Origin: Planctomycetota bacterium | GTDB lineage: Bacteria; Planctomycetota; Brocadiia; JAJRTI01 | Direction: 5' to 3' | Length of the DNA: 25,962 nucleotides | Assembly (NCBI GenBank): GCA_024278415.1 | Contig: JAJRTI010000148.1 | Coordinates: 1-25,962 of the forward strand | Shown: in pieces, positions 4,420 through 19,927 of the stretch | How positions within the stretch are numbered: the first letter of the stretch is position 1 | How the letters are laid out: each line of letters starts with the position of its first letter | Program-made: the position numbers and the translations under genes | The notes under the pieces: model-generated | What the model saw: the letters and a program-made list of their open reading frames with translations, nothing else | What the model was told of the DNA's origin: nothing | Database searches by the model: none

Positions 4420-4487
4420 TTGTCGCAGGGCGATTCATCGCCCGTCTCTGCGCCCGAAGCAACGGGCGATAAATCGCCCTACGACAA
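4420..4487. repeat. REPIN-like dumbbell palindrome (GGGCGA type), overlapping the rimO end
   Basis: Arms 4420-4445 and 4462-4487 pair over 26 bases with two mismatches. Each arm holds the small hairpin GGGCGA-TTCA/TTTA-TCGCCC. The spacer (4446-4461) begins CTCTGCG, as does the spacer of the copy at 8410-8473, and both copies lie in the same orientation, so the two are homologous. The right arm extends into rimO and contains its stop codon (4479-4481). Confidence 0.75.
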
Positions 4488-5780
4488 ACCGCCCCGCTCG
4501 CCCACCAGGTCATAGTCCGCGGCGCCCGTGATCCGGATGTCGATGAAGTCGCCGGGTTTCAGATCGGCATCGGCGATGTAGATGCAGCCGTCCACGTCCG
4601 GCGCGTCGCCGTGCGTGCGGCCGGCCCAGACTCCCTCGTCGTCGCCGGGGCCATCGATGACACAGGGGAGCACGCGGCCCACGAGCGATGCGTTCTGCTC
4701 GAACGCGATCTGCTGTTGGAGCGTCATGACCGCGTCGAGGCGCTCCTCCTTCACGTCGTCCGGCACTTGGTCCTCGAAGCTCGCCGCGGGCGTGTCTTCT
4801 TCCGGCGAATAGGCGAACGCCCCCAGCCGCTCGAAGCGCATCGCTTCGAGGAATGCAAGCAGCTCTTCGAAGTCCGCGTCCGTCTCCCCAGGGAAGCCGA
4901 CAATGAAGGTGGTGCGGATGAAGCACTCCGGCAGGCGCTCGCGGAGCGCAGCGATGAGTTGGCGGATCTCGGCCTGTGTCACGCGCCGGCGCATGGCCTC
5001 GAGCATACGGTCGCTGATGTGCTGGAGGGGGAGGTCGACGTACGGCACGACCTTGGGCGTGTCCGCAAGCGCGTCGATCAGCTCCGGGTAGTAGCGCGCC
5101 GGGTGGGTGTAGAGCAGGCGCACCCACTCGACGCCGTCGATGCCGGCAACGGCCGGGAGCAACTCGTGCAAGCGCTGCCGGCCGTAGAGGTCGAGGCCGT
5201 AGCGGGTGGTGTCTTGCGCGATGAAGCACAGCTCGCGCGCACCGTCGGCGACGAGTTGCCTGGCCTCGGCCACGAGCGATTCGAAGGGCGCGCTCGTGAA
5301 GGGCCCGCGGATATCGGGGATCGCGCAGTAGGAGCAGCGGTTGTCGCAGCCGTCTGCGACGCGCAGGTAGGCGTAGTGCCGCGCGATCAGGCGCAGGCGG
5401 GGCGGCACCTCGCATGCAGACGCGGCAGGCTTGGCCCCAGTGCAGAACGCGACGATCTCGTCCTCCGCGTGCAGGCCGATGACCGCGTCGGCCTCGGGCA
5501 GCTCCTGGGCCAACTCGTCGCGGTATCGCTCGGCGAGGCAGCCGGTGACGGCGATGCGTTCGAGGTTTCCCTTCCCCTTCTGCTCCGCGCAGCGGAGAAT
5601 GACGTCGAGCGACTCCTCTTTGGCGTCTTGGATGAAGCCGCAGGTGTTGATGATGAGCACCTGCGCGTCGTCGTGGTCCTCGCAGATCGTGCACCCGGCC
5701 TCTGCGAGCCGAGCGATGAGCCGCTCGGAGTCGACGAGGTTCTTGGCGCAACCCAGGCTGATGATGGAGACGCGGGGCAT
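4479..5780 (-). CDS. rimO: Ribosomal protein S12 methylthiotransferase RimO
   Basis: This 433-residue radical-SAM enzyme adds a methylthio group to an Asp of ribosomal protein S12. The N-terminal UPF0004 domain starts VSIISLGCAKNLVDSE, with cluster cysteines at about 11, 47 and 81 (INTCGFI, VTGCLAERY). The radical-SAM CxxxCxxC is CDNRCSYC at residues 145-152. The C-terminal stretch from about 365 fits the TRAM RNA-binding domain. SLGCAKNLVDSE and PDIRGPFTS are typical of RimO rather than MiaB. Length is normal. No Shine-Dalgarno sequence precedes the ATG at 5780; instead there are short repeats (AACCAGT units). The last four residues and the stop codon lie inside a dumbbell repeat, so the native C-terminus may have been altered. 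It is downstream of ftsK in the same direction, with a 99-base gap. Confidence 0.95.
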   Translation of the reverse strand: MPRVSIISLGCAKNLVDSERLIARLAEAGCTICEDHDDAQVLIINTCGFIQDAKEESLDVILRCAEQKGKGNLERIAVTGCLAERYRDELAQELPEADAVIGLHAEDEIVAFCTGAKPAASACEVPPRLRLIARHYAYLRVADGCDNRCSYCAIPDIRGPFTSAPFESLVAEARQLVADGARELCFIAQDTTRYGLDLYGRQRLHELLPAVAGIDGVEWVRLLYTHPARYYPELIDALADTPKVVPYVDLPLQHISDRMLEAMRRRVTQAEIRQLIAALRERLPECFIRTTFIVGFPGETDADFEELLAFLEAMRFERLGAFAYSPEEDTPAASFEDQVPDDVKEERLDAVMTLQQQIAFEQNASLVGRVLPCVIDGPGDDEGVWAGRTHGDAPDVDGCIYIADADLKPGDFIDIRITGAADYDLVGERGGLS

Positions 5781-8409: not shown

Positions 8410-8473
8410 GTAGTAGGGCGATTCATCGCCCGTCTCTGCGTTCGGAGCGACGGGCGATGAATCGCCCTACTAC
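8410..8473. repeat. REPIN-like dumbbell palindrome (GGGCGA type) between coaC and ftsK
   Basis: Arms 8410-8434 and 8449-8473 are perfect 25-base inverted copies, each beginning GTAGTAG and containing the hairpin GGGCGA-TTCA-TCGCCC. The 14-base spacer (TCTGCG...) matches the start of the spacer in the 4420-4487 copy. On the minus strand it follows coaC and precedes ftsK. It could slow or stabilise the transcript, but no T-run follows it. The rest of 8331-8536 shows nothing else I recognise. Confidence 0.8.
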
Positions 8474-8536
8474 AAACCACCTCACCTCGCGCCGCACACA
8501 TCGACAGCATGCTGCCGCGAAATCTGCGGTAAGCGC

Positions 8537-14155: not shown

Positions 14156-14214
14156 CACTCGTGCCGCCAAGGCAGCATAACTACGGATCGGACAACGAAC
14201 GAAAGGCGATCACG

Positions 14215-16938
14215 ATGAAACATGGCGCAACGATGTTCGTGGCAGCGGCGATGCCGGCACTCGCCTTGGTTCTTGCCGCCGGCCGGGCGGAGTCGACGGA
14301 TGTGGGCACGTTCCGCCTCGAGCCGGCGGCCACGCTCTACGTCGTGTCCGATGGAAAGCCGTGCCGGGTGAGGGTGACGTTCTCGCCCGGCCCGCGGCCG
14401 GGCGACGATTGGCTGCTGACCCGGTCGTTTGACGCGAACGAGAAGCTCGTGTTCTGGAAGAACCAACGCGTCAAGCTGGCGGACTTCCCCGTCGTCCACG
14501 AATTCACGCTGCCGGGCCAAGCTGGCGTGCATCAGATCCGCCTGCTGGCCGGGGAATACAAGACGAAGGCCAAGGTTGAGTTCGATCGGCCGTTGCCGGC
14601 AGGCGTGTGTGGCCAGCGCGGCACGCTGTACGCATGGGACTCCAGCGTCGAGCAAGCCTGGGCCTACGTGCCGCCGAAGGCGTCGGTCATGGAACTGAGC
14701 GGCGGGCCGTGCCGCGTCACCGACGAGAGCGGCGCGGTGCTCGCCGACTTGCCGAAGCCGAAGTCGAGGGCGGAGGTGGCAATCCGCCAGCGCCGCGTCG
14801 TGCTGAAAGTGCAGTTCCCCAAGCCCGGCCAGTGGTCGCTCCAGATGCGCGGCTTCCCGTTCATCCTTTGCCCATCGCCGGAAGTCGCACGCACGATCAA
14901 GGCGTCCATCGAGGAACTGCCCGACGGCACGGTGGTGCACCACAAGTTCCAGGTCGAGATCGCGAAGGTGCTGCCCAAGCTGCTCGCGCCCGAAAACGCC
15001 GGCCGCGCCCGGTCTCTCGTGTTCGGCCTGAGGCGCCTCCAGCGCGAGTGGCTCAAGGCCCCCATCCGCAACTCGAATCTCCTGGGCTCGTACGGGTTCA
15101 TGGAGCACGTGAACTGGTCGCTGCGCATGCAAGATATGAATCCTCGCAGCTCCACGAGCGGCGCGATCACCGCGGAGAAAGGCCGGCGCTGGGACAACTA
15201 CGGCGCCGGCGGATCGCTCACCGGCGGCAGCCTCGCGGCCGGCCTCGCGCAGGCCGCGACGCTCGACGCGGCGTTCAACCCCTGGTTTGCGAAGCGGGAG
15301 CTGGTCTACCGCGCGGCCGCGTGCGCGATGCGCGACCTCATGCTGTTGGCCGAGGACGAGACGTTCCAGAGCGGCCACTCGGGCGACATGAACCCCTACC
15401 CCACGGGCTGCCTCCTCTTTCCGCTCGCACAGTCGCACACCGGCGCGTTCGATCTAGCCGCGCCGCTGTTGCCGGCACAAGTGCGGCGGCTTTGGGCCGA
15501 GGGCCTCCAGCGCGCGGTGGATCGATGTTTTCCCATCCAACTTGTCACCTGCCGCAACCAGTCGGCGCACGGGCTCATCATCCTCTGGCAGTACTACCAA
15601 GGCACGCAGGACGAGCGCTATCGGGACGCGGCCTATCAGTTCAGCGAACGCTTTCTGGAACAGATGAGCAAGCCCGGCTACGACATGGAGTGCATCGGCC
15701 CCGACGCGACGTACCAGGGCATGACCCATTGGTACAAAGGCCTGTTCCTGCGGCTCACCCGCGACCCCATCATCATGGAGTCCCTGCGCAAGACGTATCG
15801 CTTCTTCAACCACACGGTCGCGCCGGAGCCCGACGGCCGCATGCTGGGCGCGAGCAACTTCTCGCACCGCACCGCGGGCTCGTTCGCAGCCGAGCAATAT
15901 GGCGGGGCCAAGGGCATCTGCGACGGCTTGCTGCCGGAGGTGGGTATCTGGGCCAAGCCGCGCACGCCCGAAGCGAGAGCCAAGGCTGAGGAGATGATCC
16001 GCAAGCGCCTCGCCGATCCGTTCACGAACAAGGACTACGCCACGCCTGGCGGACGCGCCCGCGGGCGCAAGGCGTCGCAGATCACCACCCCCCGCTACCT
16101 CTATTACGCCGCAAAACCGCTCCGGGGCGTCTGGCCCGCGCAGGAAGCCGCGCCGTTCATCCGCAACTTCGGCAACGAGATGGTCGCGGTCAAGCGGCCG
16201 GCGTCCTACTGCGTCGTGTACGTGGGCAAGCCGGCCAGCGCCTTCTACATCCGCGGCAAGGAGAAGTTCCGCAAGCCGCTGCCGGGCGACATTGAGAACA
16301 AGGGCGGCGACAAGGCGGCCAAGCCGGTCACGCCTTACCTGGGCGGCGGCCTGTCGCTGTTTTGGACTCCCGCCTACGGCAACGCGCTGCTCGCCATGAA
16401 CTGGAGCCCCGTCACCCACCACGGCCTCATCCTGCGCCGCGCGGACACGACGCGCTGGTGGGAGGACTACCTCAAGACGGAGTTCGCGCTCGACGCAGAC
16501 GCCGGTGTGCTCACGGTGGCCGGCCAAGTCGAAAAGAGCCCGCTGGCATACGAACGGCGCTACACGTTTGGCGACGACGCGCTCACCGTGGAGCTGACGC
16601 TGGCCGCGACGGATGGCTTCGCGTGCGCGAGCCTCGTCGAGAACGTGCCGCTCGTGTTTGGCTCGGTGAAAGCGCGAGGCGTGACGCTCGTCGCGCCAGA
16701 GCGCGGGCGGGCGTTCCGCGTGCAGGACTCGGCCGGCGCGGGCGTCGAGTGGGTGTTCGACACGGAACAATCGTTTGTGAAGTACGAGACGGGCCTGCGC
16801 GGGCAGAAGTGGACCGACCACGTGTGTGGCAGGGTCGAGGTGGCGTTGCCGCGCAAATTCGAGAAGGGTCAGCGCGTGGTGCTGCGGTACCAGATGCGCC
16901 CGGTGGGAGTGGCGCGTCAGATTCGCGCTCGGCCTTGA
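14215..16938 (+). CDS. Large secreted protein of unknown family, possible (alpha/alpha)-toroid carbohydrate-active protein
   Basis: I do not recognise this 907-residue protein. The start MKHGATMFVAAAMPALALVLAAGRAES is a signal peptide, probably cleaved near residue 26, so the protein is exported. Residues 27-240 look beta-rich. Residues 250-610 are helix-rich, with repeated aromatic and histidine clusters such as FMEHVNWSLRM, SGHSGDMNPYP, NQSAHGLIILWQYYQG and DATYQGMTHWYKG, as in toroid-fold polysaccharide lyases and heparinase-like enzymes. Residues 690-907 look like a C-terminal beta sandwich (YERRYTFGDDALTVELTL). That order resembles some polysaccharide lyases, but I see no diagnostic motif. 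The frame is open to 14161; the ATG at 14215 begins the signal peptide and has AAGG eight bases upstream. It ends at the -35 of the rpsO promoter. Confidence 0.75.
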   Translation: MKHGATMFVAAAMPALALVLAAGRAESTDVGTFRLEPAATLYVVSDGKPCRVRVTFSPGPRPGDDWLLTRSFDANEKLVFWKNQRVKLADFPVVHEFTLPGQAGVHQIRLLAGEYKTKAKVEFDRPLPAGVCGQRGTLYAWDSSVEQAWAYVPPKASVMELSGGPCRVTDESGAVLADLPKPKSRAEVAIRQRRVVLKVQFPKPGQWSLQMRGFPFILCPSPEVARTIKASIEELPDGTVVHHKFQVEIAKVLPKLLAPENAGRARSLVFGLRRLQREWLKAPIRNSNLLGSYGFMEHVNWSLRMQDMNPRSSTSGAITAEKGRRWDNYGAGGSLTGGSLAAGLAQAATLDAAFNPWFAKRELVYRAAACAMRDLMLLAEDETFQSGHSGDMNPYPTGCLLFPLAQSHTGAFDLAAPLLPAQVRRLWAEGLQRAVDRCFPIQLVTCRNQSAHGLIILWQYYQGTQDERYRDAAYQFSERFLEQMSKPGYDMECIGPDATYQGMTHWYKGLFLRLTRDPIIMESLRKTYRFFNHTVAPEPDGRMLGASNFSHRTAGSFAAEQYGGAKGICDGLLPEVGIWAKPRTPEARAKAEEMIRKRLADPFTNKDYATPGGRARGRKASQITTPRYLYYAAKPLRGVWPAQEAAPFIRNFGNEMVAVKRPASYCVVYVGKPASAFYIRGKEKFRKPLPGDIENKGGDKAAKPVTPYLGGGLSLFWTPAYGNALLAMNWSPVTHHGLILRRADTTRWWEDYLKTEFALDADAGVLTVAGQVEKSPLAYERRYTFGDDALTVELTLAATDGFACASLVENVPLVFGSVKARGVTLVAPERGRAFRVQDSAGAGVEWVFDTEQSFVKYETGLRGQKWTDHVCGRVEVALPRKFEKGQRVVLRYQMRPVGVARQIRARP

Positions 16939-17065: not shown

Positions 17066-17335
17066 ATGAGCGAAGACGCAGATTGCAAGACGAAGGTTAT
17101 CGAGGAATTTCGGCTGCACGAGAGCGATTCGGGCTCTGCTGAGGTCCAGATCGCTTTGCTCACCCGCCGAATCCAGCAGTTGACCGAGCACCTGAAGGTG
17201 CACAAAAAAGACCACGCGTCGCGCCGCGGCCTACTCAAGATGGTCGGCCGGCGTTCGTCGCTGCTCAAGTATCTCAACCGCAAAGACCCCAAGCGCTACC
17301 AGACGATCATCGCGAAGCTGGGTCTGCGCAAGTAG
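17066..17335 (+). CDS. rpsO: 30S ribosomal protein S15
   Basis: This 89-residue primary 16S rRNA-binding protein has the normal family length. Motifs include [47 protein letters not shown] and [21 protein letters not shown]. LHExDxGSxEVQ and SRRGLL are diagnostic. The frame is open upstream to 17015, but the ATG at 17066 gives the standard length. GAGG lies about 13 bases upstream, which is a little far. It precedes pnp by about 200 bases in the same direction, the classic rpsO-pnp pair. Confidence 0.97.
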
Positions 17336-17515: not shown

Positions 17516-17536
17516 CGGATGGGAGGCTACGCAACT

Positions 17537-19927
17537 GTGAGTATTCATGACCTCGGGCCGAAAGTCGTCGGAACCATTGGCGGGAAGGAACTCACGATCT
17601 CCACGGGGTTCATGGCCAAGCAGGCCAGTGGCGCCGCGGTCGTGCAATGCGGCGACACCGTCGTGCTCGTCACGGCCGTGGGCGCGCCAGCATTCAGGGA
17701 GGCCGACTTCTTCCCGCTCACCGTCGACTACCGCGAGAAGACATACGCCGCAGGCAAGATCCCCGGCGGCTATTTCAAGCGAGAGGGCCGGCCCTCGACC
17801 AAAGAAATCCTGACCATGCGCCTGATCGACCGGCCCGTGCGGCCGCTCTTCCCCAAGGGCTACCGCGACGAAGTGCAGATCATGTGCGCGGTCCTGTCGG
17901 CCGACAACATCATCGATCCCGACTCGCTCGCAATGGTCGGCGCGTCCGCGGCGCTGAGCCTATCGGGCCTTCCCTTCGCGGGGCCCACCGGCTCCGTGCG
18001 CGTGTGCCGCGTCAAAGGGGAACTCGTCGTCAACCCCACGAAGGATGAGATCGAAGAGGCCGACCTCGAATTGGTCGTCGCCGGGACGAAAAACGCCATT
18101 ATGATGGTCGAGGGCGAGGCCAAAGAGGTGCCGGAAGAAGACCTGGTCAAGGCCATCCTCTGCGCCCATGAAAGCATCAAGCAGATCGTCGACCTCCAGT
18201 TCGAATTGCTCCAGCAATGCGGCAAGGAGGCCTACGTCCCTGAAAAGGACAAGCCCGTCGACCCGGTGTGCGAGATGCTCAAGCCCATCGCGATGGACGA
18301 GTTGAAGAAGCGGCTCATGACCGAGGGCAAAATGGCCCGCTCGGCCGCGGTGAAGGAATACCGCAACGAACTGATCGAAGCCTACGCGAGCGAAGAGGAC
18401 GACGGCAAGCCCACCCCCGCGGAGATCAAAAGCGCGTTCGAATCGCTGCAGCGCGAGGCCTTGCGCCGAATGGTCATCGACGACAACATCCGTTGCGATG
18501 GCCGCAAGCTCACCGACGTGCGCCCCATCACCATCGAACTCGGCACCCTCCCCCGCGCACACGGCTCGGCGCTCTTCACCCGCGGCGAAACGCAGGCCCT
18601 GGTCGTGGCCACGCTCGGCACCAAGACCGACGAGCAGAAGATCGACACCCTCGACGAGGTCGTGTCGAAGCGCTTCATGCTCCACTACAACTTCCCGCCC
18701 TTCTGCGTGGGCGAGGCCAAGCCCATCCGCAGCGTGGGCCGCCGCGAGATCGGCCACGGCAACCTCGCCGAGCGCTCCATCGAGCAAGTGCTGCCCACGC
18801 CCGAAGAGTTCTCCTACACGATTCGGATCGTGTCCGACGTGCTGGAGTCCAACGGCTCCTCGTCCATGGCCTCCGTGTGCGGCGCGTCGCTGTGCCTCAT
18901 GGACGCCGGCGTGCCCACGCACGGCCAAGTGGCCGGCATCGCATTGGGCTTGGTGAAGGAAGGCGACGAGGTGCGCATCCTTTCCGACATCCTCGGCTCC
19001 GATGACCACTGCGGCGACATGGACTTCAAGGTCGCCGGCACCGCCAAGGGCGTGACCGGCCTCCAGATGGACATCAAGATTGACGGCATCAACGAGACGA
19101 TCCTCACCGACGCGCTCGCACAGGCGCGCGAAGGCCGCCTGCATATCCTCAGTGTCATGAACGAGGCCATCGCAGAGCCCCGGCCCCAAGTCAGCCCGTA
19201 CGCGCCCAAGATCCTCCGCATCCAGATCGACCCCGACAAGATCGGCTCGATCATTGGCCCCGGCGGCAAGATCATCCGCAAGATGCAAGACGAGACCGGC
19301 GCACGAATCGAGGTCCAAGACGACGGCACCGTGCTCATCTCCTCGGAGGACGCGGAGAACGCCGAGGCCGCGAAGAAGCGTATCGAAAGCCTGACCGAGG
19401 AGATCCAAGTCGGACGCATCTACGAGGGCACGGTCGTGTCCATCAAAGACTTCGGCGCGTTCGTGCAGATCCTGCCCGGCCAGGACGGCCTGCTGCACAT
19501 CTCAGAGATGTCCGACGACTTCGTGGACAGCGTCGAGGATGTGGTGTCCATCGGCGACGAGGTGAAAGTGAAGGTCCTTGAAATCGACGGCCAGGGCCGC
19601 GTGCGCTTGAGCCGAAAGGGGCTGTCCGGCAACGGCGAGGGCGGCAAGATGCAAGAGGAGAGTGGCGCGCGCGTGGCCGAGGAGATCCAAGTCGGACGCA
19701 TCTACGAGGGCACGGTCGTGTCCATCAAGGACTTCGGCGCGTTTGTGCAGATTCTGCCGGGCCAGGACGGCCTGCTGCATATTTCGGAGATGTCCGACGA
19801 CTTTGTGGACCGCGTCGAGGATGTGGTCTCTATCGGCGACGACGTGAAGGTCAAGGTTCTTGAAGTCGACGGGAAGGGCCGCGTGCGCCTGAGCCGCAAG
19901 GGGTTGTCGGGCGGCGAGGAGAACTAG
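17537..19927 (+). CDS. pnp: Polynucleotide phosphorylase with duplicated S1 domain
   Basis: This 796-residue enzyme degrades RNA from the 3' end using phosphate and is a core part of RNA turnover. Two RNase PH domains come first (KQASGAAVVQCGDTVVLVTA, then CDGRKLTDVRPI and GDMDFKVAGTAKGVTGLQMDIKI with the catalytic Asp residues). The KH domain (about 554-618) has GPGGK. Two S1 domains follow, at about 621-698 and 715-792. The family normally has one. The copies differ at 4 of 78 residues and are joined by a 16-residue linker (GEGGKMQEESGAR) that resembles the KH segment GPGGK...MQDETGAR. I chose GTG at 17537 because GGGAGG lies ten bases before it; the in-frame ATG at 17519 has no ribosome-binding site. 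Confidence 0.95.
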   Translation: MSIHDLGPKVVGTIGGKELTISTGFMAKQASGAAVVQCGDTVVLVTAVGAPAFREADFFPLTVDYREKTYAAGKIPGGYFKREGRPSTKEILTMRLIDRPVRPLFPKGYRDEVQIMCAVLSADNIIDPDSLAMVGASAALSLSGLPFAGPTGSVRVCRVKGELVVNPTKDEIEEADLELVVAGTKNAIMMVEGEAKEVPEEDLVKAILCAHESIKQIVDLQFELLQQCGKEAYVPEKDKPVDPVCEMLKPIAMDELKKRLMTEGKMARSAAVKEYRNELIEAYASEEDDGKPTPAEIKSAFESLQREALRRMVIDDNIRCDGRKLTDVRPITIELGTLPRAHGSALFTRGETQALVVATLGTKTDEQKIDTLDEVVSKRFMLHYNFPPFCVGEAKPIRSVGRREIGHGNLAERSIEQVLPTPEEFSYTIRIVSDVLESNGSSSMASVCGASLCLMDAGVPTHGQVAGIALGLVKEGDEVRILSDILGSDDHCGDMDFKVAGTAKGVTGLQMDIKIDGINETILTDALAQAREGRLHILSVMNEAIAEPRPQVSPYAPKILRIQIDPDKIGSIIGPGGKIIRKMQDETGARIEVQDDGTVLISSEDAENAEAAKKRIESLTEEIQVGRIYEGTVVSIKDFGAFVQILPGQDGLLHISEMSDDFVDSVEDVVSIGDEVKVKVLEIDGQGRVRLSRKGLSGNGEGGKMQEESGARVAEEIQVGRIYEGTVVSIKDFGAFVQILPGQDGLLHISEMSDDFVDRVEDVVSIGDDVKVKVLEVDGKGRVRLSRKGLSGGEEN
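19397..19630 (+). repeat. S1-domain direct repeat, first copy (inside pnp)
   Basis: This 78-codon unit recurs at 19679-19912, starting 282 bases later. By my count 22 of 234 bases differ (about 91% identity), most at third codon positions, and the first 50 bases are identical. Only four residues change (Ser/Arg, Glu/Asp, Ile/Val, Gln/Lys). Confidence 0.95.
19679..19912 (+). repeat. S1-domain direct repeat, second copy (inside pnp)
   Basis: This is the second S1 unit, in frame and near the C-terminus; only five codons, including the stop, follow. It is preceded by a 48-base relic (19634-19681) that resembles the KH coding segment at 19256-19312, with an internal deletion of about four codons. 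Confidence 0.95.

Follow-up and report, generated by a model that had tools for sequence, protein, structure and literature searches.

The pnp gene in the window (the whole stretch of 25,962 nucleotides analysed here) encodes a PNPase (polynucleotide phosphorylase, an enzyme that degrades RNA) that ends in two nearly identical S1 domains, separated by a short linker that contains a remnant of a KH domain. The usual description of a PNPase has a single KH and a single S1 domain. We think it probable that the protein is a genuine PNPase whose gene underwent a lineage-specific tandem duplication at its 3' end, that the second KH domain decayed while both S1 domains were kept, and that a longer arm for RNA capture was the result. 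What we rate as new is the recent and independent origin of the second S1 domain together with the KH scar; the enzyme is otherwise ordinary, and its architecture recurs in the databases. The gene lies downstream of rpsO, which is the usual gene order in bacteria, and the features needed for the argument are as follows.

17066..17335, + strand: rpsO (ribosomal protein S15), upstream of pnp; TIGR00952 with 129 bits (cut-off 64).
17519..19927, + strand: pnp (PNPase), a single open frame of 802 residues counted from the ATG at 17519.
19199..19396, + strand: intact KH domain, residues 561-626 (Pfam KH_1 at 566-623), with the GPGG loop kept.
19266..19290, + strand: three GCAAGA direct repeats within the intact KH domain (at 19266, 19278, and 19285).
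19395..19446, + strand: block of 52 nt opening both S1 copies, identical to 19677-19728; a possible conversion tract.
19397..19630, + strand: S1 copy 1, residues 627-704 (Pfam S1 in two stretches; 124 bits with our own HMM).
19622..19678, + strand: inter-S1 linker, residues 702-720, 19 residues between the S1 HMM matches, predicted to be disordered.
19634..19675, + strand: KH remnant, residues 706-719, matching the protein's own residues 580-597 with one gap of four residues.
19679..19912, + strand: S1 copy 2, residues 721-798 (Pfam S1 in two stretches; 120 bits with our own HMM).

The GTG at 17537, which would give a protein of 796 residues, is a likelier start than the ATG at 17519 because the closest relative, P0121, starts at the matching residue; the motif GGGAGG is found just ahead of it at 17521-17526. 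The product scores 1088 bits with the NCBIfam model TIGR03591 (polyribonucleotide nucleotidyltransferase, cut-off 525), and Pfam identifies RNase_PH (in two stretches), RNase_PH_C, the PNPase helical domain, KH, and two S1 domains in this order. The domain order of the bacterial PNPases (two RNase PH domains, helical domain, KH, S1) is therefore present, and the likeness to the TIGR03591 enzymes, such as those of E. coli and Caulobacter, extends to the active-site residues and the upstream rpsO; the number of S1 domains is two instead of exactly one. Residues S447, S449, D496, D502, and K504 do not vary across an alignment of 40 rows, the last three being the equivalents of D486, D492, and K494 in the usual PNPase numbering. 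The phosphate-site serines of PNPase are located at 437-439 according to an excerpt of a published study (PMC4748814), and the alignment indicates that the window protein keeps these serines as well as the active-site residues. The 50 matches listed in a fold search are ordinary PNPases. In a separate comparison with the PDB, each PNPase chain listed matches in one stretch that reaches no further than query residue 719 and stops before S1 copy 2. In the surroundings of the gene, an open frame of 925 residues without a Pfam match lies upstream of rpsO (14161-16938). The window also contains two copies of a palindromic repeat of 72 nt that are 88% alike (4422-4493 and 8410-8481), one of which overlaps the last bases at the 3' end of rimO while the other is found in the gap before ftsK; it looks like an element of the REP or MITE type. 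Rfam and tRNA scans gave no matches.

The initial annotation had described two almost identical S1 domains in tandem and in frame, and this description holds: one open reading frame spans both copies, Pfam finds two S1 domains behind the KH domain, and the range 19397..19912 assigned to the pair corresponds exactly to two copies of 78 codons and the 16 codons in between. It had also counted 22 differences in 234 bases, mostly at silent sites, and we obtained the same number, with 18 silent and four replacing changes (S/R, E/D, I/V, and Q/K), each in a separate codon. When 22 changes were placed at random 20,000 times, no placement reached 18 silent ones. The purifying selection that had been proposed is seen in a dS of 0.416, a dN of 0.023, and a ratio of 0.055 (Nei-Gojobori counts with Jukes-Cantor correction). 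In a repeat search the copies appear as a 266-nt repeat with 87% identity and a spacing of 282 nt, corresponding to 94 codons. No other direct repeat detected in the window comes close in length, the runners-up comprising 72 and 40 nt. With the default score setting, Tandem Repeats Finder does not list the S1 repeat and reports only an 18-nt repeat elsewhere. Chance or low complexity as source of the repeat is ruled out by the repeat search and the counts of silent and replacing changes.

At the protein level the two copies are 94.7% identical. Among the 119 relatives with a single S1 domain, the best identities are 84.0% for copy 1 and 81.3% for copy 2, both to P0124, and with respect to P0121, the closest relative by whole protein, they amount to 81.3% and 78.7%, respectively. 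A derivation of copy 2 from the ribosomal S1 protein was considered and rejected because the copies share 95% identity, whereas the best of 123 S1 domains from 30 multi-S1 proteins without KH domain is only 51% identical to either of them. Ribosomal protein bS1 and other multi-S1 proteins share the tandem S1 domains with the window protein but have neither RNase PH nor KH domains. A tree of S1 domains alone, based on 75 columns and without ribosomal S1, has few firm forks.

Copy 1 contains a single derived residue, S671, where 117 of the 119 single-S1 relatives have K or R. Copy 2 contains three, namely D instead of E (E in 114 of 119), V instead of I (I in 118 of 119), and K instead of Q (Q in all 119), and these changes at nearly invariant sites may point to a weaker constraint on copy 2. 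The residues of the PNPase S1 domain that bind RNA are F19, F22, H34, D64, and R68 as given in an excerpt of PMC6832287, and their equivalents, placed by motif, are kept in both copies. In the monomer model, the pLDDT per block is 81-88 for copy 1 and 82-90 for copy 2, whose last block has 71, and it falls below 50 for the linker residues 705-720. Concerning the identical 52 nt at the beginning of both copies, the chance of finding no change in the first 16 codons is 0.0024, a measure picked after seeing the data, while a permutation of the longest run gives 0.054. Gene conversion is thus suggested by one measure but not by the other.

The linker between the S1 domains contains the best evidence for how the second copy came about. 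Its residues 706-719 (14 residues) can be aligned with positions 580-597 in the KH domain of the same protein, comprising the GPGG loop and the next helix, with a BLOSUM62 score of 44. This score was matched by none of 20,000 shuffles of the linker, none of 2,056 segments of 14 other genes of the window, and none of 4,462 segments upstream of the KH domain in the PNPases. In a first null, built from PNPase core segments, 23 of 4,376 reached or exceeded the linker score, which we put down to truncated proteins that have their own KH domain within the first 540 residues. At the DNA level, 19644-19671 and 19278-19305 agree in 23 of 28 bases (score 36). Of 1,227 other 57-nt pieces of the window, none scores above 25 when compared with the KH DNA, but the best reaches 35 when the whole upstream gene is searched, which leaves little distance to the linker. 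The gapped DNA alignment covers the 28-nt match and a later gap but stops short of the 12-nt gap, which is read from the protein alignment and from the base sequence with its repeats: the intact KH domain has three GCAAGA, the remnant only two (19644 and 19651). Direct repeats flank the missing 12 nt, a pattern expected from replication slippage. In total, 96 nt (32 codons) of KH sequence are missing from the remnant, in frame and in two places. When the linkers of 90 two-S1 PNPases were tested for a KH remnant, that of the window alone passed at the 1% level and none was detected in the 89 others, for which 300 shuffles each were used. Similarly, the tails following the S1 domain in the single-S1 relatives contain no KH match above 23 (95 of 119 tested, with tails of at least eight residues).

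Because of the KH remnant in the linker, the duplicated unit probably began at the GxxG loop of the KH domain and extended to the 3' end of pnp. Such a unit, ending with the last codons, would have comprised 282 + 96 = 378 nt, or 126 codons. The second KH domain would then have been cut down in frame by a 12-nt deletion between the GCAAGA direct repeats and by the loss of a further 84 nt, leaving a short flexible linker, and both S1 copies would subsequently have been retained under purifying selection.

The single S1 domain that the initial annotation regarded as the PNPase norm, next to one KH domain, stands as a rule. One S1 domain is present in all 119 closest PNPase relatives listed, in all 44 complete PNPases among 50 comparison loci (the six other loci run off the contig, two with one S1 domain and four ending before S1), and in 30 of 30 loci of one phylum. 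The rule is not universal because 89 other PNPases in the best 120 C-terminal matches carry two. The best 120 matches to the KH-S1-S1 region consist of 90 two-S1 PNPases, the window's included, and 30 proteins without KH domain that hold four to six S1 domains. By whole protein, the closest relatives among those listed are P0121 (79%) and P0122-P0125 (69-71%); the named entries that follow are Brocadiales and further Planctomycetota. A similar list, with Omnitrophota added, was obtained for the window's chorismate mutase/prephenate dehydratase gene. Judging by these names, the DNA probably comes from a member of the Planctomycetota close to the Brocadiales.

The named two-S1 PNPases of the best 120 matches belong to Lentisphaeria, Limisphaerales, Verrucomicrobiota, and one Limnocylindria, most of them to Lentisphaeria or Verrucomicrobiota. 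Pfam was run on ten of the 89 others and found two S1 stretches in each. Nine of the 90 have less than 700 residues and are probably fragments. The proteins from Lentisphaeria, Limisphaerales, and other groups (for example P0010, P0037, and P0058) end in KH-S1-linker-S1 as the window protein does. However, the S1 pairs of the other two-S1 PNPases are only 61-83% identical, the 95% of the window being the highest of the 90, and their linkers have 17-121 residues and no detected KH remnant. The 24 two-S1 PNPases that were aligned are 46-50% identical to the window protein and are placed elsewhere on the core tree. Some of these proteins have peculiarities of their own. In P0107, P0109, and P0113, which are long two-S1 PNPases, the S1 domains are separated by an RGG-like linker of 69-99 residues with many R, G, E, and D, a possible disordered RNA-binding stretch. 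The copies of P0085, P0086, P0104, and P0119 are 77-83% alike and connected by short linkers; this group could be another recent duplication or a case of concerted evolution. P0087 and P0092 have a shorter N-terminal part, with the KH domain starting at 504-511 compared to about 557 in many others, and for P0090, which resembles them, the listed source is 'tara'.

In a tree of the PNPase core without S1 domains (49 rows, 23 with two and 26 with one S1 domain), the arrangement needs three changes in S1 number, and in 200 bootstrap trees the 5-95% range gives the same count. The rows were picked by hand and represent 23 of the 90 two-S1 PNPases, 12 of the 119 single-S1 relatives, and 14 locus proteins (15 loci were chosen, but the incomplete L041 was dropped). 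The tree was computed without a mixture model, long branches were flagged, losses are possible, and the count applies to this sample. The two-S1 proteins appear in three places: the window, a group with Lentisphaeria and Limisphaerales, and P0087/P0092. The window protein groups with the single-S1 P0121 at 100/100 support, and a single clade of all two-S1 rows is rejected with a p-AU of 8e-55 under LG+G4. Common descent of the two-S1 arrangement in the window protein and in the group of Lentisphaeria and Limisphaerales is not compatible with this sampled topology. A quick core tree showed the same three places; it counted two changes because the locus rows carried no label. The P0087/P0092 group branches with Chloroflexota sequences (L024 and L041 in the quick tree, L024 in the core tree). 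No close match to this group was found among 201 genomes (198 matching) of the phylum of G004, the best listed having 57%, and none of the PNPase matches listed there extends past residue 665 of 744 or reaches the second S1 domain. A more far-reaching reading is that doubling of S1 is a recurrent convergent adaptation with at least three origins, each giving a crown of six S1 domains, and that the window shows such a form soon after its birth, with the scar of a KH-S1-KH-S1 arrangement. We offer this reading tentatively.

The main rival to a duplication that has been put to use is a real duplication whose second S1 domain is neutral and transient, bringing no gain and awaiting a loss that has not yet been fixed. 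It is rather unlikely in our view. The closest relatives manage without a second S1 domain (119 of 119 listed are single), copy 2 carries the three changes at nearly invariant sites, and a tandem repeat with an exact block of 52 nt should be prone to deletion, all of which would suit a short-lived copy. However, 0.42 silent changes per site against 0.023 replacing ones indicate long selection, unless conversion restored copy 2, and the two-S1 architecture persists in other lineages.

It could also be imagined that the ends of the PNPase genes of two related species were joined in one contig during assembly. The window may be a metagenome record, the copies have the exact 52-nt stretch in common, at which assembly graphs could cross, and their divergence at silent sites is also expected for the orthologues of two species. 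Silent divergence alone can therefore not exclude such a chimera, and the KH remnant, which the initial annotation did not mention, is the better evidence. A fusion of two intact genes would not yield an in-frame linker with a KH piece that is 5 of 28 bases off the intact KH domain and lacks 96 nt in two places. In addition, a single open reading frame runs through, and the third-position G+C is alike in core, copies, and linker (0.85-0.89). A second contig with the same pnp was not found, the protein cluster having one member, from the window's own contig. Because of the KH scar in the linker we regard an assembly artefact as very unlikely. Still less probable is an old, shared duplication whose copies were homogenized by gene conversion and of which the single-S1 relatives lost one. 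The exact 52-nt block would suit conversion, but losses would be needed in P0121-P0125 and in the other single-S1 relatives branching around the window, and the tails of the relatives (95 of 119) score at most 23 against the KH domain compared to 44 for the window linker. A lineage-specific duplication followed by decay of the second KH domain is the preferred explanation.

Concerning its function, the likeliest role of a second S1 domain on a flexible linker of 19 residues would be to add reach and avidity. A trimer would carry six S1 domains instead of three, and the extra domains would lengthen the flexible arm that catches single-stranded RNA for the KH aperture, which would strengthen the binding of longer or structured RNAs or bring them within reach. 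According to excerpts of earlier studies, S1 domains have been suggested to be flexibly tethered and to act by fly-casting for RNA (PMC3376730), and the sRNA in the PNPase-Hfq complex of E. coli is held by the KH and S1 domains (PMC8294330). Deletion of S1 in the E. coli enzyme strongly decreased binding of the sRNA RyhB in vitro, but the sRNAs MicA and GcvB were bound in vivo without a significant difference (excerpt of PMC4748814). The PNPase of seed-plant mitochondria has a second S1 domain too, but at the N-terminus (excerpt of PMC9181182), and S1 repeats in bacterial PNPase are mentioned in passing in an excerpt of PMC7352785. The listings and excerpts covered, mostly of papers from outside the subscription journals and including PMC6705787 and PMC11641769, contained no description of C-terminal S1 doubling in a bacterial PNPase.

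The two-S1 forms in several lineages offer natural material for studying the role of the S1 domain in PNPase. At least one of them has probably been generated by duplication of a KH-S1 unit with subsequent decay of the KH domain, and this case would allow a comparison of forms with one and two S1 domains that are otherwise nearly the same.
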